In this document: positions 8,327 to 24,470 of the stretch, piece after piece | Layout of the letters: each line of letters opens with the position of its first letter | Numbering within the stretch: the stretch's first letter is position 1 | Assembly: GCF_021295345.1 (NCBI RefSeq) | Contig: NZ_JAIMJB010000002.1 | Location: 1-64,000 of the forward strand | DNA: 64,000 bases | Direction of reading: 5' to 3' | Source of the DNA: Motilimonas eburnea | Lineage (GTDB): Bacteria > Pseudomonadota > Gammaproteobacteria > Enterobacterales > CBDFNC01 | Position numbers and translations under genes: made by a program | Notes under the pieces: generated by a model | The model's input: the letters and a program-made list of their open reading frames with translations, nothing else | The model's database searches: none | Told to the model about the DNA's origin: nothing

Positions 8327-11300
8327 CTATGCGCTGGTGGTATTTGACGCGCTTGCCAAAGTGGCAAACTCGCATGTGGTAAAACGATATAGATAGTGCG
8401 GACCACCGGCTTTGGGGCCTGTGCCCGACAATCCTTGCCCGCCAAAGGGCTGCACGCCTACCACGGCACCGACTTGATCTCGGTTGATATAACAGTTGCC
8501 CACCCGAGCGTGTTGCTCTAGCCAGCGATAGCTGGTTTCATTGCGGCTATGAATACCCATGGTCAGGCCATAGCCTGTTTGATTAATTTGCTCTATTACT
8601 TGTGGCAGTTGATCGGCTTGAAAACGGATCAAGTGCAAGATAGGGCCAAAATGCTCTTGGGTTAAGGTGTTGATGTGCTCGATTTCAAACGCACACGGCG
8701 GCACAAAGTCACCGTGCTGACAGGCTTCATCCAAACTTAATTTGGCGATGGTGCGCTGCGTGGTTTGCATATCTTCAATATGTTTAAGTAACTTAGCCTT
8801 GGCGTTGCCATCAATCACGGGGCCAACATCGGTACTGTGTAAATAGGGTAGACCCACTTCCAGCTCCGCCATGGCGCCTTTGATAAGCTCGATCACTCGC
8901 TCGCTAATATCTTGTTGCACATACAAAATCCGAAGGGCAGAGCAGCGCTGACCTGCAGAGGCAAAGGCAGAGCGCATCACATCGCGAACCACTTGCTCGG
9001 GCAAGGCGGTGCTGTCCACTATCATGGCATTTTGACCACCGGTTTCAGCAATAAACACCGCCGGTGCGCAGTCACGCTCAGCTAAGGTTTGCTGAATTAA
9101 TTTGGCAGTCGGCGTGGAGCCGGTAAAGGCTACGCCCGCGATAGCACTGTTGCTGGTTAAGGCTTGACCAATGTCGGCACCGCGGCCCAATATCAATTGA
9201 ATAACGCCAATGGGAAAGCCTGCTAAGTGCATTAACTCAACGGCGCGAGCCGCGATCAAACTGGTTTGCTCGGCGGGCTTAGCCACCACGGTATTACCCG
9301 TAACCAAGGCGGCGCTAATTTGGCCAAGAAAAATAGCCAGCGGGAAGTTCCACGGACTAATGCACACAAACACGCCGCGACCTTGACGCGTTAAGGTGCG
9401 GGTTTTGCCATCAAAGCCTGAAACGGGCTGCGGCCCTAACTGTTGGGCTTGTTTGGCGTAATAGCGACAAAAATCCACCGCTTCACGTACTTCGTCTATG
9501 CTGTCGTGAATGGTTTTCCCCGCTTCTTGGTGACACAAGGCGACCAGCTCTGCCATGTGCTCTTCCAGTAAATAGGCAAGTTGCTCTAGCTTGTTGGCGC
9601 GAAGGGCAACAGGCATTTGCTGCCAGTCGGCATAAGCCTGTTGTGCGACTTCAATGGCTTGCTTGACTTGAGATGGCGTGGCAAAGGTGACTGAACCGAC
9701 ATTGATGCGGCGATCATAAGGCGGGGTGATCTTGATAGTGCGCTCACTGGCATCCTCAAAACAGTGATGCCCATCAATGATGGAGCCTGCTTGCCACTGC
9801 TTGGTCATAAATCCATTCACTTGCTGCTCAAACGGCTCGGCTTCGCTATGGATATCAATGTTAACGCCATGAGCGTTTTTACGTGTGGCAAAAATGTGCG
9901 GCGGTAGGGGAATATTCACATTATTCATGTGCTCATGGCTGAGTAAGGTATCAACGGGGTGCGCGGTGAGCTCTGCAACGGGGCAACGCGCATCCACTAA
10001 ACGATGCACGAACGAGCTATTGGCGCCGTTTTCCAATAATCGACGCACTAAATAGGGCAACAGATCTTTGTGACTACCAACGGGCGCGTAAATACGCACA
10101 CTTTGTTGATGAGTGGCCATCACATGGTAATAAAGGGATTCGCCCATGCCGTGTAAGCGTTGAAATTCATAATCTTTGTGTTTGGCCATCACGGCGATGG
10201 CGGTCACGGTTTGTGCGTTATGGCTAGCAAACTGGGGAAATAGATGGCCGCGCACACCGTCACTGAGTAAAAAACGAGCGCAAGCCAAATAGGCCACATC
10301 GGTGGCTTCTTTGCGGGTGTAAACCGGGTAGTTGGCATAACCGGCTTGTTGTGACCATTTGATCTCACTGTCCCAATACGCGCCTTTCACTAAGCGAACT
10401 GGGATCAGATCGCCCTGTAATTGGGCGAGGCGATTAAGCCAAACCAGCACCGCCAACGCGCGTTTAGAATAGGCCTGGATCACTAACCCAACTTTGCCCC
10501 AGCCCTTGGCGATATCGCTTTGATACAGCTTGGCAAACAGTTGTAAAGAAAGCTCAAGGCGATCGGCTTCTTCGGCGTCGATGGTAATGGCAACATCGAG
10601 CGCACGGGCGCGTCGAATTAATTGACAAACGTTGTCATACAGCTCGCTCATTACGCGCCCTTTATTGGTGACCTCATAGCGAGGGTGCAGGGCTGAAAGC
10701 TTGATCGAAATAGAAGGCGCTGGGCTGGTATTGTTGCCGTACTGCTCTTTGCCCACGGCTTCAATGGCGTTGAGATAATCCGTTAAATATTTATTGGCAT
10801 CCCCTTGAGTGAGCGCGGCTTCGCCAAGCATATCAAATGAATAGGTGAAGCCTATATCGCGCATGGGGCGACCTTTTTGTTGCGCCTCTTGGATATTTCG
10901 CCCAAGCACAAATTGATGTCCCATGATTTTCATGGCTTGGTGCATGGCTTTACGGATCACCGGCTCTGATAGCTTGTTCACTAAGCGAGACAAGGCTTGA
11001 GTTGGACTGTCGCTGATGGTTTTGTCTGATTTTAGGCCGATAACCTTACCTGTTATCAACAGGCCCCAGGTTGATGCATTAACAAATGCCGAATCCGAAT
11101 TTTTTAAATGGGCTTGCCAATCGGCCACCGATAATTTGTCGCGAATAAGCGCATCGGCCGTGGCCGCATCGGGAATGCGAAGCAGGGCTTCGGCAAGGCA
11201 CATTAATAAAATGCCTTCTTGGGTGTCTAGGCTGTATTCCAGTAGCAGCGCATCAATTAACTGGATCGCTTTTTTATCGGCGCGGATCGCTTCAATTAAA

Positions 11301-11476
11301 TGGGCGGTTTTTTCACTGATTTTGGTCTTTTCTTGCGCCGTAGGCGTCGCAAGAGGAAGCAGTTGTTTTAGCCATTGAGACTCGTCCACCATGTATAGAG
11401 GGGAGATGTGATCCCACAACTTATCTAGGGGTTGCTCAATGAAGGGTGTTGTTAACACGTCGGTTGCTGTAAACAT
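8327..11476 (-). CDS. putA: Bifunctional proline dehydrogenase / L-glutamate-gamma-semialdehyde dehydrogenase
   Basis: Oxidises proline to glutamate in two steps at the membrane periphery. The 1049-residue protein starts with a helical arm, then a FAD-binding proline dehydrogenase barrel at about residues 150-470 (SIKLSALHPRYE, ITIDAEEADRLELS, VRLVKGAYWDSEIK, FATHN-like FASHNAQT, QRLHGMGE), and an NAD-dependent aldehyde dehydrogenase at about 560-1030 with ISPWNFPLAIF, FTGSTPTAKLI, catalytic GQRCSA (Cys about 845) and the Glu in AETGGQNA. The ribbon-helix-helix repressor domain of E. coli PutA is absent, which fits control by the AraC gene upstream, and the C-terminal domain is a separate gene. 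AAGGAC lies before the ATG. Confidence 0.95.
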   Translation of the reverse strand: MFTATDVLTTPFIEQPLDKLWDHISPLYMVDESQWLKQLLPLATPTAQEKTKISEKTAHLIEAIRADKKAIQLIDALLLEYSLDTQEGILLMCLAEALLRIPDAATADALIRDKLSVADWQAHLKNSDSAFVNASTWGLLITGKVIGLKSDKTISDSPTQALSRLVNKLSEPVIRKAMHQAMKIMGHQFVLGRNIQEAQQKGRPMRDIGFTYSFDMLGEAALTQGDANKYLTDYLNAIEAVGKEQYGNNTSPAPSISIKLSALHPRYEVTNKGRVMSELYDNVCQLIRRARALDVAITIDAEEADRLELSLQLFAKLYQSDIAKGWGKVGLVIQAYSKRALAVLVWLNRLAQLQGDLIPVRLVKGAYWDSEIKWSQQAGYANYPVYTRKEATDVAYLACARFLLSDGVRGHLFPQFASHNAQTVTAIAVMAKHKDYEFQRLHGMGESLYYHVMATHQQSVRIYAPVGSHKDLLPYLVRRLLENGANSSFVHRLVDARCPVAELTAHPVDTLLSHEHMNNVNIPLPPHIFATRKNAHGVNIDIHSEAEPFEQQVNGFMTKQWQAGSIIDGHHCFEDASERTIKITPPYDRRINVGSVTFATPSQVKQAIEVAQQAYADWQQMPVALRANKLEQLAYLLEEHMAELVALCHQEAGKTIHDSIDEVREAVDFCRYYAKQAQQLGPQPVSGFDGKTRTLTRQGRGVFVCISPWNFPLAIFLGQISAALVTGNTVVAKPAEQTSLIAARAVELMHLAGFPIGVIQLILGRGADIGQALTSNSAIAGVAFTGSTPTAKLIQQTLAERDCAPAVFIAETGGQNAMIVDSTALPEQVVRDVMRSAFASAGQRCSALRILYVQQDISERVIELIKGAMAELEVGLPYLHSTDVGPVIDGNAKAKLLKHIEDMQTTQRTIAKLSLDEACQHGDFVPPCAFEIEHINTLTQEHFGPILHLIRFQADQLPQVIEQINQTGYGLTMGIHSRNETSYRWLEQHARVGNCYINRDQVGAVVGVQPFGGQGLSGTGPKAGGPHYLYRFTTCEFATLASASNTTSA

Positions 11477-13921: not shown

Positions 13922-13942
13922 TGGCATGAAATGGTAAGTTTA
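13922..13942 (+). promoter_or_regulatory. 21-bp regulon motif, copy 1 (before porin gene)
   Basis: TGGCATGAAATGGTAAGTTT plus A. One of four copies that agree at 17 of 21 positions (consensus TGKCAYSAAATGGTAAGTTT). GCA, six bases, GGTAA resembles the TGCA-N6-GGNTA boxes of AraC/XylS activators. It lies 160 bp before the OprB-like porin; a weak inverted TTACCA follows at about 13960. Confidence 0.7.
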
Positions 13943-14102
13943 GTTACTTGTATTCACTTTACCAGATGGCTAGTTTCTCAATATATGTATGCTTTGCTGA
14001 ACAGTTCGCTTTTTACACACAAAGTGATCTTGGACTCGACTGATATAGAAGGTATTTAGCCAAGCAACAAGTTGAAAATGTTTCAGTAAAAGGCCTCAAT
14101 AA

Positions 14103-15359
14103 ATGGAATTAAATATGTCTGCTCGGCGATCGGTTTTTGCCATTGGTTTGCTTGTTTTAGGCGCCCCTTTTTTCTCATCGGCGGCCAATTTTGGTGGTCC
14201 GGATGCTGTTGAAAATACCCTCTCTGAGCACAACAAGCAGCCACAAAGTTGGCGTAACCAGTTAGCGCAAGAGGGGTTGACTTTTGGATTGGACTACAAT
14301 GGGATCGGGTTTAACTCTGCTAATGGCAGTAAAGGTAATACGGTTAACGCCAGCGGTGGTGTTGCGCGTTTCTACGGACAGTGGAACTTGATTGGACGTA
14401 ACTCGAATAATACGGGGGGGATCGTCTGGAAGATTGAGCATCGACATGCTTATAGTGATTATGCTCCCAAATCGTATGCATTTCTCGCTGACTTAGCTGG
14501 AGCTGAAGGGTTAGGCTATATAGGCATGATCCAGCCAGCCTTTAGCGATCAGGGGGACAGGATCACTAATCTTCATTGGAAGCAGCGCCTCAATGATGGC
14601 AAGACGTCCTTCATTGTTGGGTTTCAGGATGTGACCGACTACGTGGATACCTATGCGCTGGCTAGCCCTTGGACTGGTTTTTCAAACCTAGTGTTCCAAA
14701 CAGGTGCTGGTGCAATGGGATTGCCAGATGATGGTTTATTTGCCGTTTCGATTGGCCAGATGTTAACGGATAATTACTATATTGTGGCTGGATTGGCAGA
14801 CGCTAACGGACGTTCAGATAGCGATGAAATATTTGATGGGTTCGATAGCTTTTTTAATGACAACGACTATTTCACAACGGTTGAATTGGGTTGGACTGCC
14901 TCACAGCAACAGATTTATACCGATAACCTGCATGTTACTTATTGGCACTTAGACGCCACCTTTAATGACGATGGATCAACACGTCATAGCGCCAAAAACA
15001 GCGAAGGCGTCAACTTTTCTTTAAGCTATTTTGTTACTCCTCAAATTATGCCTTTTGTTCGCGCAGGCTTTTCCATTGATGGTGATGCAGCGCTGTATGA
15101 GAAATCTATTTCTGTCGGTTTAGGCTATTTTGGCTTGGGCGCGCCTAAACATAATTTGGGGGCGGCGTTTAACTGGAGTGAAGCCAATAAAGAGGGATGG
15201 GGTACAGATGATAGCCAAACCACATTGGAGATTTACTACAACATGCAGTTTGGTGAACATGTTCAAATAACACCCGATTTCCAATGGATCCATGATCCTA
15301 TATTGTCGCAAGAGAGTAATGCTCTGGTATTTGGCTTGCGCGGTAGAATATTTATATAA
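14103..15359 (+). CDS. OprB-like outer-membrane porin
   Basis: A 418-residue exported protein with a signal peptide ending SSAA at about residue 28 and the hallmark of the OprB carbohydrate-selective porin family: WRNQLAQEGLTFGLDYNGIGF at the start of the barrel, many alternating aromatic strands, and the C-terminal strand ending FGLRGRIFI. Family members form 16-stranded channels for sugars or other small uncharged solutes. The 21-bp regulon motif lies upstream and the amidohydrolase gene follows, so it may admit that enzyme's substrate. ATG at 14115 is an alternative start. Confidence 0.8.
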   Translation: MELNMSARRSVFAIGLLVLGAPFFSSAANFGGPDAVENTLSEHNKQPQSWRNQLAQEGLTFGLDYNGIGFNSANGSKGNTVNASGGVARFYGQWNLIGRNSNNTGGIVWKIEHRHAYSDYAPKSYAFLADLAGAEGLGYIGMIQPAFSDQGDRITNLHWKQRLNDGKTSFIVGFQDVTDYVDTYALASPWTGFSNLVFQTGAGAMGLPDDGLFAVSIGQMLTDNYYIVAGLADANGRSDSDEIFDGFDSFFNDNDYFTTVELGWTASQQQIYTDNLHVTYWHLDATFNDDGSTRHSAKNSEGVNFSLSYFVTPQIMPFVRAGFSIDGDAALYEKSISVGLGYFGLGAPKHNLGAAFNWSEANKEGWGTDDSQTTLEIYYNMQFGEHVQITPDFQWIHDPILSQESNALVFGLRGRIFI

Positions 15360-15495
15360 CAAGACAATGCATTCAGGCCTGAGTCAATTGGGCTGGTTTG
15401 GCGGAAAGCCGTCCCATTTTACGGGGCGAATCGCGATATTTTGCCGATGAGAGGCAAGGAAACTGGGTAAAGCGTGTCAATCTTTGGTGCTGAGT

Positions 15496-15516
15496 TGTCA
15501 CCAAATGGTAAGTTTA
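15496..15516 (+). promoter_or_regulatory. 21-bp regulon motif, copy 2 (before amidohydrolase)
   Basis: TGTCACCAAATGGTAAGTTT plus A, sharing the invariant AAATGGTAAGTTT core with the copies at 13922, 20743 and 21920. It lies 183 bp before the amidohydrolase ATG at 15679, in a 300-bp gap that contains no other feature I can name. Confidence 0.7.
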
Positions 15517-15678
15517 TTGTCTTGAATAAACATAAACTGAACGCTAAGTTACGAAATGTATATATTCTATATACGTATTGTTAAAAAAGTTGCGTCTTTG
15601 GTTGTAAGTTGGGCTCGGTCTATGGGCCCAGTGGTCAGTTTGAGCCGTGAAATATAATCACAATATATGGGTAGAAAA

Positions 15679-17058
15679 ATGAAAAATCAGCCAATTAAAC
15701 TAAGCTTACTCGCTGCATGTTGTTCTGTGGCTTTTGGTGCCAATGCGGCAAGCACGCTCTTTACCAATGTTGATGTCTTTAATGGTAAAGACAACAAATT
15801 GTACAAAAATCACCATGTATTGGTGGTGGATAATCTGATTTCTGAAGTGTCAGCCAGCCCGATTGATGCCGGTGACGCAACGGTTATTGATGGTAAAGGC
15901 AAAACCTTGATGCCAGGTTTAATTGAGGGACACGGTCATTTACTTATGAACGGTGGAACCCTAAATGATCATGAAAATAACCGCACAATCGAAGAGTTAG
16001 CAGCGCGCTCAACCGTGATGGCCAACGCAGCCTTTCAGTCAGGCTTTACCACATGGCGTGATGCGGGTGGTTTGAACACCGGCCTGCGGAAAACTATCGA
16101 TGCGGGTCTGTTAGTAGGGCCACGTTTATACACTTCGGGCGCATTTCTTGGGCCAACCGGATCACATGCCGATTTTTCAAACCTTACTACCTTAAATCAA
16201 CATATTAACGGTATGCAAACGTCCATGGGACGTAGCAATGTCAGCGTCAACACAGACAGCATTGCAGAAATTAAGTCTGCGGCACGCTTGAACTTTAAGC
16301 AGGGTAACTCACAGATTAAAATCATGTCTTCGGGTGGCGTGGCTTCATCGTTTGACCCTTGGCAGCTCAACGCGATGTCAGCTGAAGAAATTGCTGCCGC
16401 GGTGGAAATTGCCGATGCTTACGGCTCGTATGTGATGTCTCATGCTTACAGCAAAAAAGCCATCATGCGTAATTTAGATGCGGGTGTGAAGTCGATTGAA
16501 CATGGCTTTATGTTTGACGGCGAAATCGCTAAAAAAATGAAGGAAAAAGGCGCTTATATCACAACCAATATGACCGCATTTTCACCTTACCTAGCCACTA
16601 TCCCAGCGATAAATGACAATCCTGTTTCGAAATTAAAAGCTGAATCGGCGCAAAAAGCGTTTAAAGACTATATCAAGAACGTCAATGAGTACCAGCCTAA
16701 ATGGGGCTATCACACAGATTGTGTGGGTGGTTTAGAAGCCTGCATTAAGCAAACTGACCATACAATTTACCTTGCAGGTAAAGAATTTGGTAACTTTTTT
16801 GCTCTTAAGGGCTTAACCTCGGTGAATGGTGAACTGGTTAAATTATCCGGCGTTATGGATCCCTACCCACAAGCTGCATTAGGTGTGGTGGAAAAGGGCG
16901 CATTTGCAGACTTACTCTTAGTGGACGGTAACCCATTGGAAGATTTGTCCGTTATCGGCGCTAACGAAAAATGGTTTGATGCTGAGCCGCGTGATGTGGC
17001 TTTAGATACGATTAAGGTGATAATGAAGGACGGTAAAGTCTATAAAAATACGCTTTAA
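15679..17058 (+). CDS. Exported metal-dependent amidohydrolase (prolidase/imidazolonepropionase-like)
   Basis: A 459-residue amidohydrolase-superfamily enzyme with a signal peptide (to about GANA, residue 23), so it should act in the periplasm. Metal ligands are visible: LIEGHGHLL (HxH near residue 91), a Lys in IKIMSSGGVAS that fits the carboxylated lysine, SHAYSK and SIEHGF histidines, and the late Asp region. The C-terminus returns to the beta-sandwich with GAFADLLLVDGNPLED. The group includes Xaa-Pro and N-acyl amino-acid hydrolases; the true substrate is unknown. ATG at 15667 is in frame but the signal peptide starts at 15679. It is followed by a strong terminator. Confidence 0.85.
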   Translation: MKNQPIKLSLLAACCSVAFGANAASTLFTNVDVFNGKDNKLYKNHHVLVVDNLISEVSASPIDAGDATVIDGKGKTLMPGLIEGHGHLLMNGGTLNDHENNRTIEELAARSTVMANAAFQSGFTTWRDAGGLNTGLRKTIDAGLLVGPRLYTSGAFLGPTGSHADFSNLTTLNQHINGMQTSMGRSNVSVNTDSIAEIKSAARLNFKQGNSQIKIMSSGGVASSFDPWQLNAMSAEEIAAAVEIADAYGSYVMSHAYSKKAIMRNLDAGVKSIEHGFMFDGEIAKKMKEKGAYITTNMTAFSPYLATIPAINDNPVSKLKAESAQKAFKDYIKNVNEYQPKWGYHTDCVGGLEACIKQTDHTIYLAGKEFGNFFALKGLTSVNGELVKLSGVMDPYPQAALGVVEKGAFADLLLVDGNPLEDLSVIGANEKWFDAEPRDVALDTIKVIMKDGKVYKNTL

Positions 17059-17082
17059 CCCCTCTGTTGTCCGTTTTGCTCC

Positions 17083-17104
17083 CCCACCTTCGGGTGGGTT
17101 TTTT
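17083..17104 (+). terminator. Rho-independent terminator after amidohydrolase
   Basis: CCCACC-TTCG-GGTGGG at 17083-17098 followed by six T. It is only 12 bp before the next gene, so it separates or attenuates that gene from the amidohydrolase. Confidence 0.9.
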
Positions 17105-17115
17105 CTGAGGTTCGA

Positions 17116-17754
17116 ATGAAACACGTTATTACCGCTTTTCTTTTGTCGCTTTTTTCTATGCCGCTTTATGCAGAGACGCCTCTGACATTGGATTGGTCAA
17201 ACCTAAATAGTGAGGCAAAACCTGTCACCATTAAATTGCCTGAATTAACGGAAGATCAAAAGCGACTGTTGCAAGGGGTGATTATTTTAAATGATCAGGA
17301 TTCAGAAGAATCAAGATTACAAAAGCAACACATTGAATCTCAATTAGCAAAACAAGGTCTTAATGCGAGTGAGCTTATTCAATTACGTCAAGACTACATG
17401 CAGGCAATGAAAGAAAACGCAGAAACAGTTACCGATGCTTACAATGGCAAACTTGTGCGTATGCCGGGGTTTATTGTACCTATTGAATATAATGAAAATT
17501 TAGAAGCCACTGAATTATTATTGGTGCCCGTTGCGGGGGCTTGCATTCATATGCCACCGCCTGCCGCTAATCAAATCGTGAGAATATATTATCCGTCTGG
17601 GTTTGAAGTTCAAAACGTGCAATACCCAGTCTGGGTGGAAGGGAAGTTTAATGCCAATGTGATAACCGAGGAGGTTTTTTTGGTTGATGGCGGGGCAAAT
17701 GTTGCCATGGGTTACGAAATGAAAGCCACCTTAATTGAAGATTATTATGAGTGA
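17116..17754 (+). CDS. DUF3299 family periplasmic protein
   Basis: A 212-residue exported protein with signal peptide ending LYAE. The conserved C-terminal half carries VRMPGFIVPIEYNENLEATELLLVPVAGACIHMPPPAANQIVRI, the DUF3299 core with its Cys-x-His-Met-Pro-Pro-Pro motif near residue 141, which suggests a metal or lipoprotein-maturation role in the family but is not proved. The middle (about 50-105) is helical and acidic. GAGG at 17107-17110 is the ribosome site. The terminator before it implies attenuated read-through or its own promoter. Confidence 0.8.
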   Translation: MKHVITAFLLSLFSMPLYAETPLTLDWSNLNSEAKPVTIKLPELTEDQKRLLQGVIILNDQDSEESRLQKQHIESQLAKQGLNASELIQLRQDYMQAMKENAETVTDAYNGKLVRMPGFIVPIEYNENLEATELLLVPVAGACIHMPPPAANQIVRIYYPSGFEVQNVQYPVWVEGKFNANVITEEVFLVDGGANVAMGYEMKATLIEDYYE

Positions 17755-17837
17755 ACAATAAAGGAATTAAATATCCAAACTTCTATTACGGTAATGCAGG
17801 CAGATGGCGGTTTCATGGTTATTTCCGTGCTAACGCA

Positions 17838-18833
17838 TTATTGGTTTTGATTAGCTTGGTTTGTTTTGATTTTAAATGACTTTGGGTAGTACCCAGAATG
17901 TGATTTAAACGCTCTGCAAAAATGCGTAACATTGCTATAACCCAGTTTTAGAGATATTTCAGTGACGGTTTCTTTACCTTCTGCCAATGATTTACAGGCT
18001 TTGTCATACCTTGCCTTAGATAATTCTTGTCTGAAAGAGGTGTTATTTTGTTTTAACCGTCGCTGAAGCGTTCTTTCGCTGACGGACATTAACCATGACA
18101 CGGTTTGGATATTTAAACGCTGAAAGTGTAATAATCCGTTTAGTACTTGTTGAAACTGAACAAGAAAATCTGGGCTTAAATGATACTGCTGGTTATACGC
18201 CGGAATAGTTGACTTAGGGGTGTTAGTTAGTAATACACTTGGGATAAAGATACCCGTTTTATTTGCCTGGTGGGTTATATTACAGTCCTCATAAAAATGC
18301 TTGGCAGCATGCCAATGCGCCATGCTTTTTGAGGCGAGGTTGACAAAGTTAGGTAACCATGGATAAGTTGTAAAATGGTTAACTAAATTCACTGTCATTT
18401 GAAGATCATATAACTCTACATCGGCAAAACCTTGCGCATGAACAGGTAAGCTGTGCTTTTGCCAAAGCCAAATACCATTCAATGAAGACTCGATATAAAT
18501 CTCGACCTTAGCAGATTCATGGTTCACTGCCTTTACCCAATGGTTAAGTGTTTGTAATAAAGACCAATGTTCACCAATCGCGTTGGCGAACTGGCCGTAC
18601 ATGGCAAGCCCGGAATTTTCCGCAACCATTAAACTATAACTTGCATCTTGTTGTAATCCACTGAGGTAGTGAACCGACGAAAAAAGCTGGTGAGTAAACA
18701 CATATTCGTGTTCTATGTCCAAAATGTCTGCGGGAAGCTTTAGTTGTTTAAGGGCTTTTTTGTATTCAAAGCCACTCTTTTCAGCATGTACAATAAAAGG
18801 AGAAAGTTGACCTAGTCGAGTTAAGGTAAGCAA
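17838..18833 (-). CDS. AraC/XylS-family regulator with arabinose-binding-like N-domain
   Basis: A 331-residue regulator of the OruR/ArgR-type branch: a long N-terminal sensor domain (residues 1-200, with AENSGLAMYGQFANAIGEHWSLLQTLNHWV) and a C-terminal AraC-type DNA-binding domain at about 235-325 (SVSERTLQRRLKQNNTSFRQELSKARYDKACKSL, then VTEISLKLGYSNVTHFCRAFKSHSGYYPKSFK). It is convergent with the DUF3299 gene. It shares architecture with the regulator at 20769 and either could bind the 21-bp motif nearby. The effector is unknown. Confidence 0.88.
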   Translation of the reverse strand: MLTLTRLGQLSPFIVHAEKSGFEYKKALKQLKLPADILDIEHEYVFTHQLFSSVHYLSGLQQDASYSLMVAENSGLAMYGQFANAIGEHWSLLQTLNHWVKAVNHESAKVEIYIESSLNGIWLWQKHSLPVHAQGFADVELYDLQMTVNLVNHFTTYPWLPNFVNLASKSMAHWHAAKHFYEDCNITHQANKTGIFIPSVLLTNTPKSTIPAYNQQYHLSPDFLVQFQQVLNGLLHFQRLNIQTVSWLMSVSERTLQRRLKQNNTSFRQELSKARYDKACKSLAEGKETVTEISLKLGYSNVTHFCRAFKSHSGYYPKSFKIKTNQANQNQ

Positions 18834-19001
18834 ACTAAACGTTACTCAATCAGTTATATGAATTAAGTTAATTATATAACTAGTATAAATGGTGTGTAAA
18901 TTGTTAGTTTAGCCGATTGGCGCAGAGCCGTGACACCTGAGGCGATAGGTTATCAAGCCAGATAACAAGGCTCCTTGGTTTTCTAGCTTGATTGAGCCAA
19001 C

Positions 19002-19325
19002 TTAATTATATTTAACATGTAACATTTTTCTTAACTTGTTACAACGGCTCTTATTTAGCGGGTCACCAAGGTAATCACCATCTTCGGCTGCTTTTTTATA
19101 CACCATTGCTTTTAATTTGGTTCCTTCATCGAGGTCGCCAAATTCCTTTGTTGTTTTTAATTTTAGTAATTTGTAAGTTGTTTCATTGCCATCAGGAAAG
19201 TGTTTAGAGCAGTAGCTCATTGCACCAGCATTGGCTCCTAATTTGGCTGAATCCGAAATAGCAAAACAACTTGCAGATACGCCCGCTATGACGGTAGTTA
19301 AAACTAGCTTGTTTATCAATTTCAT
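19002..19325 (-). CDS. Small secreted protein, 107 aa, unknown function
   Basis: A signal peptide (to about CFA, residue 22) precedes a mature part of about 85 residues with cysteines in YCSKHF and SRCNKL that may pair, several Lys, and a GDLDEGTK..AMVYKKAAEDGDYLGDP stretch. No family was recognised. GAGAGGA lies 5 nt before the ATG, a strong ribosome site. It is divergent from the outer-membrane barrel gene at 19523 and lies inside the motif-bearing island. Confidence 0.65.
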   Translation of the reverse strand: MKLINKLVLTTVIAGVSASCFAISDSAKLGANAGAMSYCSKHFPDGNETTYKLLKLKTTKEFGDLDEGTKLKAMVYKKAAEDGDYLGDPLNKSRCNKLRKMLHVKYN

Positions 19326-19386
19326 CCTGTCCTCTCAACATGTTAATTAGTTCTATAATCATCATTTACCATGATAACCCGAATTA

Positions 19387-19404
19387 TGGCGTTTAGTGGG
19401 TAAG
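19387..19404 (+). promoter_or_regulatory. Degenerate regulon motif candidate
   Basis: TGGCGTTTAGTGGGTAAG keeps TGGC and GGTAAG of the regulon motif with one extra base between them. It lies about 120 bp before the barrel gene at 19523. It is weaker than the four strong copies and could be chance. Confidence 0.3.
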
Positions 19405-19522
19405 CGCTTTAACTGTCGTAAAATGATCGTTAATTGATCTGCGTCATTATTGTGAGTGATTGCTATAATTGAATGAAAAATCAGTCATCAGTGCATAAAA
19501 TGGCGATAAGAAAGGAATGTCG

Positions 19523-20326
19523 GTGAAAAAATTAACCATAGTATCTTGGGTAGTGGCTTTTGTCTTTGTCAGTAGTGCCAGTGCCGATAATAAATCGAAT
19601 CAAGCTGAAGTGGCTAAAGAATTAGCCAATCCTAACACGGCTTTTGCCAGTTTAAATATAAAACTACAATATAACGATGGCTATCAAGGTGGTGGAGATA
19701 ACTTTACCACCGTATTTCAGCCTTCATTGCCATTTCCGCTGGAAAATGGCGATAAAGTATTGTTTAGGCCTGCTATTTCATACATAGATAACGACTTTTC
19801 AGAAAATGATAAAAGCGGTTTTTCGGATATATCTTTTGATTTAGCCTACGCCCCTAATCGGTCTGATAATTCCATTTTTGCCATCGGGATGATAGCTTCG
19901 TTACCAACAGGTAGCGATGAATTTAGCGCAAAACAGCTGGCAATTGGGCCAGAGGTTTTATTCGGAAAAGTGAGTGCTGAGCGCGTTGTGGGTATATTTC
20001 CTAATCACTTAGTCGGTGTTGCTGGCTCAGGAATTGATGATGGAAGGGTTAACAAGACGTCTGCACAAGTATTTTGGACTGAGTTACTTGATCAGGGATG
20101 GACAATGGGCTCTGCCCCTACATTTTCTTATGACTGGGAAAGTGACCAAGCAGAAATCCCAATCAACTTCAGCATCACCAAAACCAGCATTTTAGGTGGC
20201 CGTCCATGGAAAGTTGGCATTGAAGCCAATTATTATGTAGAAAAAGCAGAATCAACTCGGCCTGATTTTATGATAGGCTTTAACATTACACCCGTTGTAG
20301 AAAATAAATTAACGGCACTGTTTTAG
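19523..20326 (+). CDS. Outer-membrane beta-barrel (transporter-like) protein
   Basis: A 267-residue exported protein with signal peptide ending SASA. The mature sequence alternates hydrophobic and polar residues as outer-membrane strands do, with FTTVFQPSLPFPLENGDKVLFRPAISYI, SDISFDLAYAP, FAIGMIASLPTGSDEF and a last strand of FMIGFNITPVV. It resembles the loosely defined phenol-degradation/MetA-type barrel group, whose roles are unclear. AAAGGA at 19511-19516 abuts an ATG at 19517 but lies 6 nt from the GTG at 19523, so the GTG is preferred; both are in frame. Confidence 0.7.
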   Translation: MKKLTIVSWVVAFVFVSSASADNKSNQAEVAKELANPNTAFASLNIKLQYNDGYQGGGDNFTTVFQPSLPFPLENGDKVLFRPAISYIDNDFSENDKSGFSDISFDLAYAPNRSDNSIFAIGMIASLPTGSDEFSAKQLAIGPEVLFGKVSAERVVGIFPNHLVGVAGSGIDDGRVNKTSAQVFWTELLDQGWTMGSAPTFSYDWESDQAEIPINFSITKTSILGGRPWKVGIEANYYVEKAESTRPDFMIGFNITPVVENKLTALF

Positions 20327-20376
20327 TATTGCTAGAGCCAAGATTCTTATTTCCTTGGCTCTACTATCATAAACCC

Positions 20377-20673
20377 TTAGATGCGTTTAATCACCTTGAG
20401 CTTAACCGCTTTTTTTAGTGAGGAGTCACGTTTATTTCTGACCACACGTTTGGCGGCTTTTGCTTTCACCCCGGTTTTGACGAGTGAGTCATCGTTGTCC
20501 ATAAGTTCATCAGCGACATGTAATTTAACCAGTTTTTTCGTGGTTGAGTCATGATTATCCGAGATAATCTCGTCAGCCACTTTTAATTTGACGGCTGTTT
20601 CAACAAGTCCATCAGCATGAACCATAGCCATAGGAGCGAATAGAAGCGTTAGGGCAATTAATTTAGCTTTCAT
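20377..20673 (-). CDS. Small secreted repeat protein, 98 aa
   Basis: After a signal peptide (to about VHA, residue 20) the mature protein is four imperfect repeats of about 19-21 residues built on V-K-x-x-V-K-L-K-V-A-D-E-x-x-x-D-N-x-D-S: VETAVKLKVADEIISDNHDS, KKLVKLHVADELMDNDDS, VKTGVKAKAAKRVVRNKRDS and LKKAVKLKVIKRI. The first two repeats are acidic, the last two strongly basic, so charge is split along the chain. No family was recognised. GAGGTAA is the ribosome site. Regulon motif copy 4 lies 70 bp upstream, pointing at it. Confidence 0.7.
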   Translation of the reverse strand: MKAKLIALTLLFAPMAMVHADGLVETAVKLKVADEIISDNHDSTTKKLVKLHVADELMDNDDSLVKTGVKAKAAKRVVRNKRDSSLKKAVKLKVIKRI

Positions 20674-20718
20674 AGGGTTACCTCGTTAAATTGTTTGGTG
20701 TTTAAGTATCAACGAGGT

Positions 20719-20763
20719 AAATAGTAAGTTAGCCAGCCTAATAAAACTTACCATTTCGTGCCA
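20719..20763 (-). promoter_or_regulatory. 21-bp regulon motif, copy 4, with inverted partner
   Basis: On the minus strand 20763-20743 reads TGGCACGAAATGGTAAGTTT plus T. A second core, AAATAGTAAGTTA, lies on the plus strand at 20719-20731, facing it. The pair sits between the AraC gene ending at 20769 and the repeat-protein gene that starts at 20673, oriented towards the latter. Confidence 0.7.
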
Positions 20764-20768
20764 CGAGA

Positions 20769-21764
20769 TCAGGCGATAATGTTCTTCCGCCATTGTCGTG
20801 GGCTTGCGCCATGCTGTTTCTTAAATGCACGTGAGAAATGCGCCGTACAGGAATAGCCAAGTGATAATGCAATTCTTGTGATAGGAATGGAAGGGTCTGC
20901 GAGCATAGCCAGCGCTTGTTGTTGTAATGCTTGTTCCATCACCGCGCTATAAGTTTGGCCTTCTTCTGCCAAACGACGTTGTAAACTACGAACGCTCATA
21001 TCGAGTATATTTGATGCCTGCGTAATGGGCAGGCGGCCCATGGTTAGGTAGGGGGTTAGCGCCAGTATCAGTGACTCGGTAAAATTGTTGATGGTTGCAG
21101 GCTGTTTGATCGTTTGAGCAGCAGTGAATGAAGGGGGCAAAGGGCGAGTTAAAATAGGCCGCTCAATACTGCAAGCGGTTACACTTCTTGCTGAATACAG
21201 TTGCGTATTTTTCAGTAAAAGCAGTTTGCTGTGCTCAAGTGATAAATTTGACTGAAAAGCGATTTCTTTTGGTGACCAGTTTGCGGTTGTTAGGGCGCGG
21301 ACTAATTCAATAATGAAGATAACTGAAAAATGTTCAGCGAGGATAAACCAATCTGCATTCGCCTTGCCTCGCTCTCTGACGAACCAGGTTTTACCTAGGA
21401 CGGTCCTAAGGCTTAACCGGGTTTGTGTTGTATCTGCATTAATGGCCTCAATGACCTGGATTAACGCTTCTTCTACTGTTTGGGGATTATTTAGCTGTCT
21501 AATAAAATGTGGAATATACACATCTCGGCAAAGACGCCAGGTAAACACTGAAAAATGCGCTAATCCCATTTTCTCAACAAGTAGGGACAGAAGCTGTTGT
21601 AACGCAGATTTGGGTATGTATTGGTGCTGGGTTTGTAGCATGTCTTCGGGCAGCCCTGCTTTACGCAAGAAGGGGTAGACATCGATATCCATTTGACCTA
21701 ATAAATCGACGAAAGGAATCGCATGATCAGCTTTGATTAAGGGTATTTGTTCCTTTGTCTTCAT
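20769..21764 (-). CDS. AraC/XylS-family regulator, second of the island
   Basis: A 331-residue regulator, the same length and layout as the one at 17838: an N-terminal arabinose-binding-like sensor (PFVDLLGQMDIDVYPFLRKAGLPEDML, about 18-45) and a C-terminal double helix-turn-helix at about 240-330 (PITQASNILDMSVRSLQRRLAEEGQTYSAVMEQALQQQALAML, then ITRIALSLGYSCTAHFSRAFKKQHGASPRQWRK). Regulon motif copies lie 5 bp beyond its stop and about 155 bp before its start, so it is the best candidate for the motif-binding protein. Effector unknown. Confidence 0.88.
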   Translation of the reverse strand: MKTKEQIPLIKADHAIPFVDLLGQMDIDVYPFLRKAGLPEDMLQTQHQYIPKSALQQLLSLLVEKMGLAHFSVFTWRLCRDVYIPHFIRQLNNPQTVEEALIQVIEAINADTTQTRLSLRTVLGKTWFVRERGKANADWFILAEHFSVIFIIELVRALTTANWSPKEIAFQSNLSLEHSKLLLLKNTQLYSARSVTACSIERPILTRPLPPSFTAAQTIKQPATINNFTESLILALTPYLTMGRLPITQASNILDMSVRSLQRRLAEEGQTYSAVMEQALQQQALAMLADPSIPITRIALSLGYSCTAHFSRAFKKQHGASPRQWRKNIIA

Positions 21765-21919
21765 GATATACGCAGCATTATGTTTATCAGTTGATGTGCC
21801 GAGTATATCAAAATATCACTTGGTTGAGTTTGTCATCATTGACTTGTTGCCAATGGTTTTCACAAAGTTTTCATCATCCCACATGCACTGTAGACAGTCG
21901 GCTGTGAGACACACCGCTG

Positions 21920-21940
21920 TGGCATCAAATGGTAAGTTTA
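21920..21940 (+). promoter_or_regulatory. 21-bp regulon motif, copy 3 (before small membrane protein)
   Basis: TGGCATCAAATGGTAAGTTT plus A, 58 bp before the ATG at 21999 and oriented towards it. It also lies in the shared leader of the divergent AraC gene at 20769-21764. Confidence 0.7.
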
Positions 21941-21998
21941 ATTGGTGGCTGTGCCATATCATGTTGCTCAAGTTAACCAGACACCTGAGGTGGGAAAG

Positions 21999-22409
21999 AT
22001 GAAAATAGTTAAGACAAGCATGATCAGTGGGGCGTATTTTTTGTTAGTTTTGTTGAGCTTTGATCACTTTTTTAGTTGGGTCGACATTGACAGTTTTGCT
22101 GCTGCTCTGCTGGCTGCCTTGATCATTAGTTTTACTTTACAAGCCTCTATCAAAGTCGAAGGCATCATGGCGGAAAAGTTGTTAAAGCAAAAAGTATTGC
22201 CATTATTGAAACGCGCCGTGAGCTCTTACATCATTTTAGTGGGCTCAAAATTTTTAGCGATGGGACTCATCGCGGTTGCATTAGCTGATCGGGTTATTTT
22301 TGCTGGCCCGGGAGGCGGGGTATTGATCTTTTTGATTATCGTGTTTATTTCAATGGGTCTTGAATATGCGATAAAAAACTTCGCCAGTAATGAAACCAGC
22401 TACGCTTAA
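21999..22409 (+). CDS. Four-span membrane protein, 136 aa, unknown function
   Basis: Hydrophobic segments at about residues 8-27, 32-49, 73-98 and 101-122 suggest four spans; between spans 2 and 3 lies a basic cytoplasmic helix (MAEKLLKQKVLPLLKRAV). A glycine-rich GPGGGV precedes the last span. No family was recognised. The frame opens at a TTG at 21942 but GAGGTGGG at 21986-21993 supports the ATG at 21999. Regulon motif copy 3 lies directly upstream, so it belongs to the proposed regulon. Confidence 0.7.
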   Translation: MKIVKTSMISGAYFLLVLLSFDHFFSWVDIDSFAAALLAALIISFTLQASIKVEGIMAEKLLKQKVLPLLKRAVSSYIILVGSKFLAMGLIAVALADRVIFAGPGGGVLIFLIIVFISMGLEYAIKNFASNETSYA

Positions 22410-22553: not shown

Positions 22554-24470
22554 TTAACCGCGGCCACCTAAGCAAGTTGCTAGAAATTCATCAACCTTAC
22601 TGGTGAGTCGCCGCTGGTTTTGCAGGTCACCAAAGTTGTGGCCAACGCCATCCATCTCCCAATATTCAACGGGTTTATTTAATTGGCGCATTTTTTCTAC
22701 CATATTGCGTGACTGCTCTTTGGTCACGCGTACGTCTTCGGTGCCTTGAATTACAAGCAAGGGCTTGTTGATTTTATCGATAAAGTAAATCGGCGACGCT
22801 TGGCGCATTTTTTCTAGATCCTTGGGATCGTTAACATCGCCCACAAAACTGCGCCAAATATCCATGCCTAAGGTCCATACTTGCGGCACCGAGTTGATAA
22901 ACAACTCTAAATCAGAGATACCAAAGATATCCACACCGCAGGCAAACTTATCGGGCGTTTTGGTTAAGCCCACTAAGGTGGCGTAGCCGCCGTAACTTGC
23001 GCCAACAATGGCAACATGATCAGGGTCGGTGATGCCTTTGGCAATAGCCCAATCCACTCCATCAATTAAATCTTGATGCATCTTCAAGCTAAACTCACCA
23101 AATCCAGCCGACAAAAAGTCACGGCCATAGCCCACTGAGCCACGGTAGTTAACTTGTAACACGGCATAACCGCGGTTAGCGAGTAATTGTACTTGCGGGT
23201 CGAAGCCATAAAAATCCCTTGCATGGGGGCCACCGTGTACCAGTAATACGGTAGGTAAATTGCGCGCAGGAATATTAGCGGGTGTCGTAAGGTAACCATG
23301 AATGATTAAGCCATCGCTGCTGGTAAACTGAATTGGCTTTTGTTGGCTGAGCTGATTGGTTATCTCCGTGGTGCTACTGCTTTCTAGCAAGGTGGAGCGC
23401 TGGGTCTTAGGCTCGTATAAGTAAACCTGATAAGAAACACTATCGGTGACTTCAACAATAAGCGCTTGCTCTTTTGTGTCACTGCTGATCACACGAACCG
23501 ACTTAGTCTTGTCAGTTTGATACTGATCTAACACGCTCTGATAACGCTCGTCTAACACATGAACACGTTGGTAATCAGGGTAGGACACAGCATAAACCGG
23601 TTTTTTATTTTCATCGTAAACATAAGTATGTATGTCAACTTGGCTATCTTGCGCCAAGACTTGGATCTGCTTGCTCGTCAGATCCAGAGCAAATAAGAGT
23701 TGTTTATCGGATTGATGGTCACTTAAGATGATTAAGCGTTGTTGCTTATGATCATAAACCACATGGTTGATAAACTCACCTTTGCCCCCTTGATAAAGGA
23801 CCTCGCCCGTCTTAGTGGCGACGACTTGATTGCCGTTTTTACCACGGATCAGCATGGCAAACGCATCACCTTCTGGCACCGATTCATCAATGATCCATTG
23901 CGACACTTTAGTAGCATTTTTATATAACCTGGTAGCTTCTTTATTTTGTAAATTTAATCGAAACAGATCGAACACTTCTGGGTCACGGTGGTTATAACTG
24001 ATCAATATATGGTTGGGTGCGTTTGCTAAGGTACTTTCCACCTGCATACGTACATTTTGATGATCAAACAACTGCTTAGGCCAAGCGTCAGGGCGTGACA
24101 AATCATAAAGTAACAATACCGAATCTTCATTATGATAGCTTAAGCTGGCATAGACGCGCTTGCTGTCCGGCAGCCATTCAAACCCCCATGCTGGCACATC
24201 CATACTGGTAATGGTGCTGCCGTTGATATCGCGATAGTGAATGGTGTGCATCCAATCACCGCGCACATATTTCTTTCCAATCCACGCTAGCTTTGTGCCG
24301 TCGGGTGAGATCCGATAATTGTAAGTGTTGTTCGTTGAGCTTTGAAGCTCTGACCAAGACACAGGCTGCGGCAGTTTTTGCGTCTTGAGTGTTGGGTGGG
24401 TGGCATTGGTGGTGGTATTACAGCCCGTCAGCAGTAAACAGGCAAAAAATAAAGTCAGTAGTTTGATCAA
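22554..24470 (-). CDS. S9-family prolyl oligopeptidase-like lipoprotein
   Basis: A 638-residue serine peptidase: residues about 40-370 form a beta-propeller and about 380-638 an alpha/beta-hydrolase. The nucleophile is in GASYGGYAT near residue 490, the Asp in VIQGTEDVRV and the His in DGVGHNF near the C-terminus; VHGGPHARDFYGFDPQVQLLANRGYAVLQVNYRGS is the usual entry to the hydrolase fold. The N-terminus ends LLTGC, a lipobox, so it is probably envelope-anchored and cleaves short peptides or acyl-peptides. The start appears to be TTG (GGAAG upstream), since no in-frame ATG fits the signal peptide. Confidence 0.88.
   Translation of the reverse strand: MIKLLTLFFACLLLTGCNTTTNATHPTLKTQKLPQPVSWSELQSSTNNTYNYRISPDGTKLAWIGKKYVRGDWMHTIHYRDINGSTITSMDVPAWGFEWLPDSKRVYASLSYHNEDSVLLLYDLSRPDAWPKQLFDHQNVRMQVESTLANAPNHILISYNHRDPEVFDLFRLNLQNKEATRLYKNATKVSQWIIDESVPEGDAFAMLIRGKNGNQVVATKTGEVLYQGGKGEFINHVVYDHKQQRLIILSDHQSDKQLLFALDLTSKQIQVLAQDSQVDIHTYVYDENKKPVYAVSYPDYQRVHVLDERYQSVLDQYQTDKTKSVRVISSDTKEQALIVEVTDSVSYQVYLYEPKTQRSTLLESSSTTEITNQLSQQKPIQFTSSDGLIIHGYLTTPANIPARNLPTVLLVHGGPHARDFYGFDPQVQLLANRGYAVLQVNYRGSVGYGRDFLSAGFGEFSLKMHQDLIDGVDWAIAKGITDPDHVAIVGASYGGYATLVGLTKTPDKFACGVDIFGISDLELFINSVPQVWTLGMDIWRSFVGDVNDPKDLEKMRQASPIYFIDKINKPLLVIQGTEDVRVTKEQSRNMVEKMRQLNKPVEYWEMDGVGHNFGDLQNQRRLTSKVDEFLATCLGGRG

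Follow-up and report, generated by a model that had tools for sequence, protein, structure and literature searches.

The window analysed here, a 64,000-nucleotide stretch of Motilimonas eburnea DNA, contains four near-identical motifs close to two genes of AraC-family proteins, and it raises the question of whether these motifs are the operators of one regulon and, if so, which protein acts at them and what the products do. The four copies are 20-21 bp long and identical at 17 of 21 positions (TGKCAYSAAATGGTAAGTTT); they are listed below with their position, strand and downstream gene.

13922-13941, plus strand: putative RegB box of the OprB-like porin gene, TGGCATGAAATGGTAAGTTT; porin orthologues in other genera also bear a box.
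15496-15515, plus strand: putative RegB box of the amidohydrolase promoter, TGTCACCAAATGGTAAGTTT; -10 TAAACT at box +38.
20744-20763, minus strand: putative RegB box of the repeat-protein gene, TGGCACGAAATGGTAAGTTT; -10 TACTAT at box +38.
21920-21939, plus strand: putative RegB box of the four-helix protein gene; -10 TATCAT at box +38.

The first-pass annotation had described four intergenic copies with this 17/21 agreement, each facing a gene, and both statements were borne out at 13922 (+), 15496 (+), 20744-20763 (minus) and 21920 (+). Dinucleotide shuffles of the window gave an expectation of 0.12 matches with up to three mismatches, against the four observed. It had also named many unrelated copies across the genome as an outcome that would count against a regulon; scanning of the genome (4,591,594 bases) by pattern matching found none such, the only matches with 0-1 mismatch being the four island boxes. 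One further match had two mismatches, and the three-mismatch level corresponded to background. The full box here consists of a 16-mer core, TGKCRNNAAATGGYAA, followed by GTTT; the core has one extra exact match in the genome, within an ORF, and the other near-matches examined lay in ORFs or had no credible downstream gene. The box at 21920-21939 is also located 156 nt upstream of regB, a position from which it may serve autoregulation of that gene.

The genes and further elements of the island are as follows.

14103-15359, plus strand: exported OprB-family outer-membrane porin (PF04966, E 6.9e-14), with 45-62% identical orthologues in RegB clusters.
15544-15559, plus strand: second conserved promoter or leader element of the amidohydrolase gene, CTAAGTTACGAAATGT, at box start +48.
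15667-17058, plus strand: exported binuclear-metal amidohydrolase of the COG1228 prolidase/N-acyl-amino-acid hydrolase type (PF01979, E 2.7e-24).
17116-17754, plus strand: exported DUF3299 (ZrgE-like) protein (PF11736, E 6.2e-32), adjoining the amidohydrolase in most relatives.
19002-19325, minus strand: 107-aa exported protein; a V. splendidus homologue has an upstream box.
19414-19429, plus strand: degenerate candidate box upstream of the barrel gene, TGTCGTAAAATGATCG.
19517-20326, plus strand: predicted 12-stranded outer-membrane barrel with a COG4313/FapF/NanC-like fold (AF2 pLDDT 81, Foldseek).
20377-20673, minus strand: 98-aa exported repeat protein with VKLKVADE-type repeats; a same-genus homologue in L067 is preceded by a box.
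20769-21764, minus strand: RegB, AraC-family regulator and probable cognate activator (PF12625 and HTH_18; linkage, co-occurrence and tree).
21999-22409, plus strand: four-helix inner-membrane protein (AF2 pLDDT 84, four helices).

Loci of relatives were gathered with a RegB alignment; a scan of contigs with the single RegB protein gave no match. Relatives of RegB with 33-42% identity were present in other families of the order and in named Vibrio, Shewanella, Moritella, Photobacterium, Aliivibrio and Psychromonas genomes; cyanobacteria and other Proteobacteria hold more distant ones. The Vibrio, Shewanella, Moritella and Photobacterium relatives adjoin orthologues of the porin, the amidohydrolase (up to 81% identity) and the DUF3299 protein, and the box, TGTCRNCAAATGGCAA, lies upstream of the orthologues of all three genes. 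Across 79 loci, TGKCRNNAAATGGYAA with at most one mismatch preceded amidohydrolase genes in 39 of 52 cases, porin genes in 17 of 43 and RegB-like genes in 18 of 93, compared with a mean of 0.02-0.12 and a maximum of 4 for column-permuted boxes; in some relatives the amidohydrolase and porin genes have no preceding box. A regulon is upheld, but not the private one first proposed, since dozens of genomes hold orthologous clusters that carry this box. Among 197 relatives, RegB and the amidohydrolase co-occurred (p=6e-15, shared ancestry ignored): a strong amidohydrolase was present in 10 of 11 genomes with RegB, and RegB in 10 of 11 with the amidohydrolase, the exceptions being G104 (RegB without amidohydrolase) and G131 (amidohydrolase without RegB at the cut-off). 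Co-occurrence of RegB with the four-helix gene gave p=2e-7 in the same set, again ignoring shared ancestry. Four-helix homologues with boxes were found in L080, L135, L136, L188 and L190, those of L188 and L190 being unlinked orthologues that retain the box, as does an unlinked barrel orthologue in L191, and the same-genus genome L185 carries an unlinked amidohydrolase-DUF3299-porin set with its box retained. The Shewanella locus L083, with a close relative of RegB, shares TGGCATGAAATGGTAA with the window. Clustering of neighbouring genes returned mostly genus-specific neighbours and no pathway.

Further boxes were observed at other loci. A pyridoxal-dependent decarboxylase gene with a preceding box adjoins the RegB cluster at L057:8377-9807 (-) and at L119:3562-5025 (-), the latter from Photobacterium sanguinicancri. 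At L101:16866-17930 and at related loci in Vibrio, a GGT-type box lies upstream of a gene for a PAS-GGDEF protein, with a RegB paralogue adjacent; these loci probably represent a sister regulon linked to cyclic-di-GMP. In cyanobacteria, this box also lies close to AraC relatives (26-29% identity; L138, L139, L140, L143, L145 and L148), in many cases a short way upstream of the regulator gene and on the opposite strand.

The promoters show how the box is positioned. After thinning of similar sequences, 45 of the 82 promoters had TANNNT 37/38 nt from the box start, whereas a typical other offset had it in about two. In the window it lies at +38 in three of the four promoters (amidohydrolase, repeat protein and four-helix protein), and the porin promoter has a poor -10, TTTACC, at +37/38. 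A -10 hexamer at a fixed distance from the box suggests class-II activation, and both features of AraC-type class-II promoters, a box overlapping the -35 and a fixed -10 distance, were found; with a 17-bp spacer, the box end would lie over the -35, which we read as a class-II activator layout. In addition, a second element, CTAAGTTANNGAATGT, was present 47-48 nt past the box start at 18 relatives' loci (including Vibrio) and in the window, where the distance is 48. In 17 of the 18 it precedes an amidohydrolase gene and in one a porin gene, and in the amidohydrolase promoter it lies near the predicted transcription start. The element is apparently new here and, as far as checked, undescribed.

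Several of the products could be assigned to families. The porin scored 52.5 bits against PF04966 (gathering cut-off 22.9). The amidohydrolase, for which export was predicted from the N-terminal sequence, has as its best solved relatives the prolidase 3feq/3n2c (E 7e-61) and also 3mkv, and its HxH pair, carboxylated lysine, two histidines and aspartate (candidate metal ligands H89, H91, K218, H259, H279 and D351) place it among the binuclear-metal COG1228/M38 enzymes. These residues are invariant in 11 orthologues, and their roles are presumed here from knowledge of the superfamily. The NCBIfam Xaa-Pro dipeptidase model gave 164.7 bits, below its cut-off of 500. The DUF3299 protein scored 111 bits against PF11736 (gathering cut-off 22), shares a conserved CxH-PPP-xxNQ motif and matches the profile of the solved relative 4hsp (E 1.6e-31). 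Between its gene and that of the amidohydrolase lies a terminator-like hairpin, CCCACCTTCGGGTGGG-TTTTTT (17083-17098), so that DUF3299 expression may need readthrough or a promoter of its own. The start of the four-helix protein was moved to the likelier ATG at 21999; the called TTG start (21942-21998 stretch) falls in the gene's own promoter. No PDB fold match was found for this protein, and Pfam matches of the 107-aa and repeat proteins were weak, below cut-off and dismissed.

The regulon of four genes first proposed stands but was drawn too narrowly, as it also includes the DUF3299 gene and, probably, those of the barrel and the 107-aa protein. The 107-aa protein is probably a regulon member elsewhere: its gene has no convincing box in the window, and a homologue in L062 has a box upstream. 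The barrel gene product is predicted to be a 12-stranded channel resembling COG4313 and FapF, and its orthologues in V. maerlii and V. splendidus have boxes, that of V. maerlii about 100 nt upstream. A weaker copy previously placed before this gene at 19387 is poor, requiring a 1-nt insertion and still leaving five mismatches. The better candidate in the same intergenic region, TGTCGTAAAATGATCG at 19414, has no -10 at +38, the fixed distance of box promoters, and is itself uncertain. MAFFT alignment of the barrel promoters with that of V. maerlii left the boxes unaligned, and they were compared by hand.

Given that the amidohydrolase falls in the COG1228 prolidase/N-acyl-amino-acid hydrolase group, peptide-like substrates are likely, and the amide-containing substrate suggested earlier can probably be narrowed to Xaa-Pro-like dipeptides or N-acyl amino acids. 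The 3feq/3n2c and 3mkv prolidases cleave Xaa-Pro dipeptides and N-acyl-prolines (PMC11511702). At L141:3579-4889 (+), from an Ectothiorhodospiraceae MAG, a box-preceded M19 membrane dipeptidase gene lies beside two amidohydrolases and an OprB porin, which also suggests peptide-like substrates. The island itself is flanked by the gene of a PutA proline dehydrogenase (8327-11476) and that of an S9 prolyl-oligopeptidase-family protein (22554-24470); neither has a box or is a conserved neighbour, and the proline-peptide theme is only suggestive.

The model that we favour joins what was computed (the box, its genomic site specificity, conserved linkage, co-occurrence and fixed -10 spacing) to what we infer (RegB binding, direction of regulation, ligand, substrate and DUF3299 role). 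RegB would bind a 16-20 bp box overlapping the -35 of the four promoters and, with ligand present, would recruit RNA polymerase by class-II activation, turning on the OprB-type porin, the exported prolidase-like amidohydrolase with its DUF3299 partner, the small exported repeat protein and the four-helix inner-membrane protein. The porin would then admit peptide-like molecules, such as Xaa-Pro dipeptides or N-acyl amino acids, which the amidohydrolase would cleave in the periplasm. We hold it to be very probable that RegB activates these four promoters for uptake and periplasmic cleavage of such molecules.

An extended reading, to which we give only a small chance, has a self-contained periplasmic peptide-scavenging system in which DUF3299 supplies the amidohydrolase with zinc and a second regulator or RNA-level control acts at CTAAGTTANNGAATGT; if true, DUF3299/ZrgE would be an enzyme-dedicated metal-delivery protein. 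ZrgE of the Vibrio Zur/zinc operon belongs to the same Pfam family as the window protein; it adjoins a zinc ABC transporter, whereas the window protein adjoins a metalloenzyme. In VP, zrgE and its operon are induced 76-fold under zinc limitation (PMC9817125), and ZrgE has no assigned function (PMC9820375).

The activator of the favoured model could in principle be either AraC protein, and the first-pass annotation had invoked both. The case for RegB comes from linkage, co-occurrence and the tree, in which it falls inside a clade of cluster regulators (support 97/91). It has a C-terminal double HTH (HTH_18, PF12833, E 5.3e-19) and an N-terminal Arabinose_bd domain just over threshold (PF12625, 28.9 bits against a cut-off of 27.6). 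That RegA (17838-18833), alone or jointly with RegB, drives the four promoters is improbable. RegA does lie within the island, its first recognition helix (RTLQRRL) resembles that of RegB (RSLQRRL), and boxes of the same core accompany several AraC relatives. However, it is only 23% identical to RegB and forms a long branch outside the RegB clade, a search of 198 genomes gave it no homologue of more than 26% identity, and the conserved clusters hold RegB orthologues instead; it is an orphan regulator, and only RegB is supported as the regulator here. The box core is common to several AraC paralogues, and box presence alone therefore names no regulator. Box flavour (GGC/GGT) was clustered on the regulator tree, with 9 changes compared with 21 for shuffled labels, a difference to which near-copies contribute. 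Most likely, RegB alone controls the regulon.

The direction of control was weighed in the same way. RegB as a repressor or dual regulator at the four sites is improbable: a box overlapping the -35 could block polymerase, and the second element near the predicted amidohydrolase +1 may point to more than simple activation, but the box replaces the -35 hexamer at a fixed -10 distance in the thinned promoters, which is the usual class-II activator layout, and AraC proteins are mostly activators (PMC8151288). A dispersed repeat with no regulatory role, which the near-identity of the copies might suggest, can practically be set aside, since only the box is common to copies whose flanks differ and phylogenetic footprinting already contradicts it, the box being kept at orthologous promoters across families with its -10 distance fixed.

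Boxes of XylS at Pm read TGCA-N6-GGNTA, and the resemblance to them noted earlier holds for spacing, as GCA-N6-GGTAA is present in three of the four window boxes. A XylS regulon nevertheless seems unlikely: none of the boxes has TGCA, GGCA standing in three of them and GTCA in the other; RegB differs from XylS in its N-terminal family (PF12625) and targets, and its profile matches include no XylS model. Because the same core accompanies RegB homologues even in cyanobacteria, it looks like a recognition core common to the RegB clade. RegB is like GliR (PA3027) and QhpR in HTH and overall layout; as an orthologue of either it was rejected, both NCBIfam scores being far under the equivalog cut-offs (QhpR, E 9e-29, 100.5 of 250 bits; GliR, E 6e-15, 55.3 of 570 bits). 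GliR sites overlap or precede the -35 (PMC8151288), but the published GliR motif, YYGGCGHTDTYSGMC, and its glycerolipid gene targets are both unlike the RegB system. The box of Pseudomonas ArgR, also of the AraC family (TGTCGC-N8-AA-N5; PMC4997734), has the same spacing as the family box TGTCGC-AAAATGGC-AA, but ArgR has arginine/carA targets and a consensus without the ATGGC core conserved in RegB boxes. The COG1228 prolidases Sgx9260b/c and N-acyl amino acid hydrolases share the fold and metal ligands of the window amidohydrolase, which differs in being predicted to be exported and placed in an AraC/porin regulon.

No description of an AraC, amidohydrolase and porin regulon or of the box string was found in the open-access text searched, and neither the AlmA regulator paper nor the text of the P. 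aeruginosa TF atlas contained a matching motif. Together, these data indicate that the regulon is genuine and well conserved, that its mechanism is most likely that of an ordinary AraC activator and that this kind of system is already known; its membership, operator and second promoter element are, as far as checked, undescribed. Footprinting across families defines an AraC regulon, widely distributed among marine gammaproteobacteria, by its operator, its core members and the layout of its promoters, and gives a consensus sequence of the box for the PF12625 subgroup of AraC proteins, which is large and little characterised. The position of DUF3299 (ZrgE) beside a metal-dependent periplasmic hydrolase makes a metal-delivery role for this family testable.
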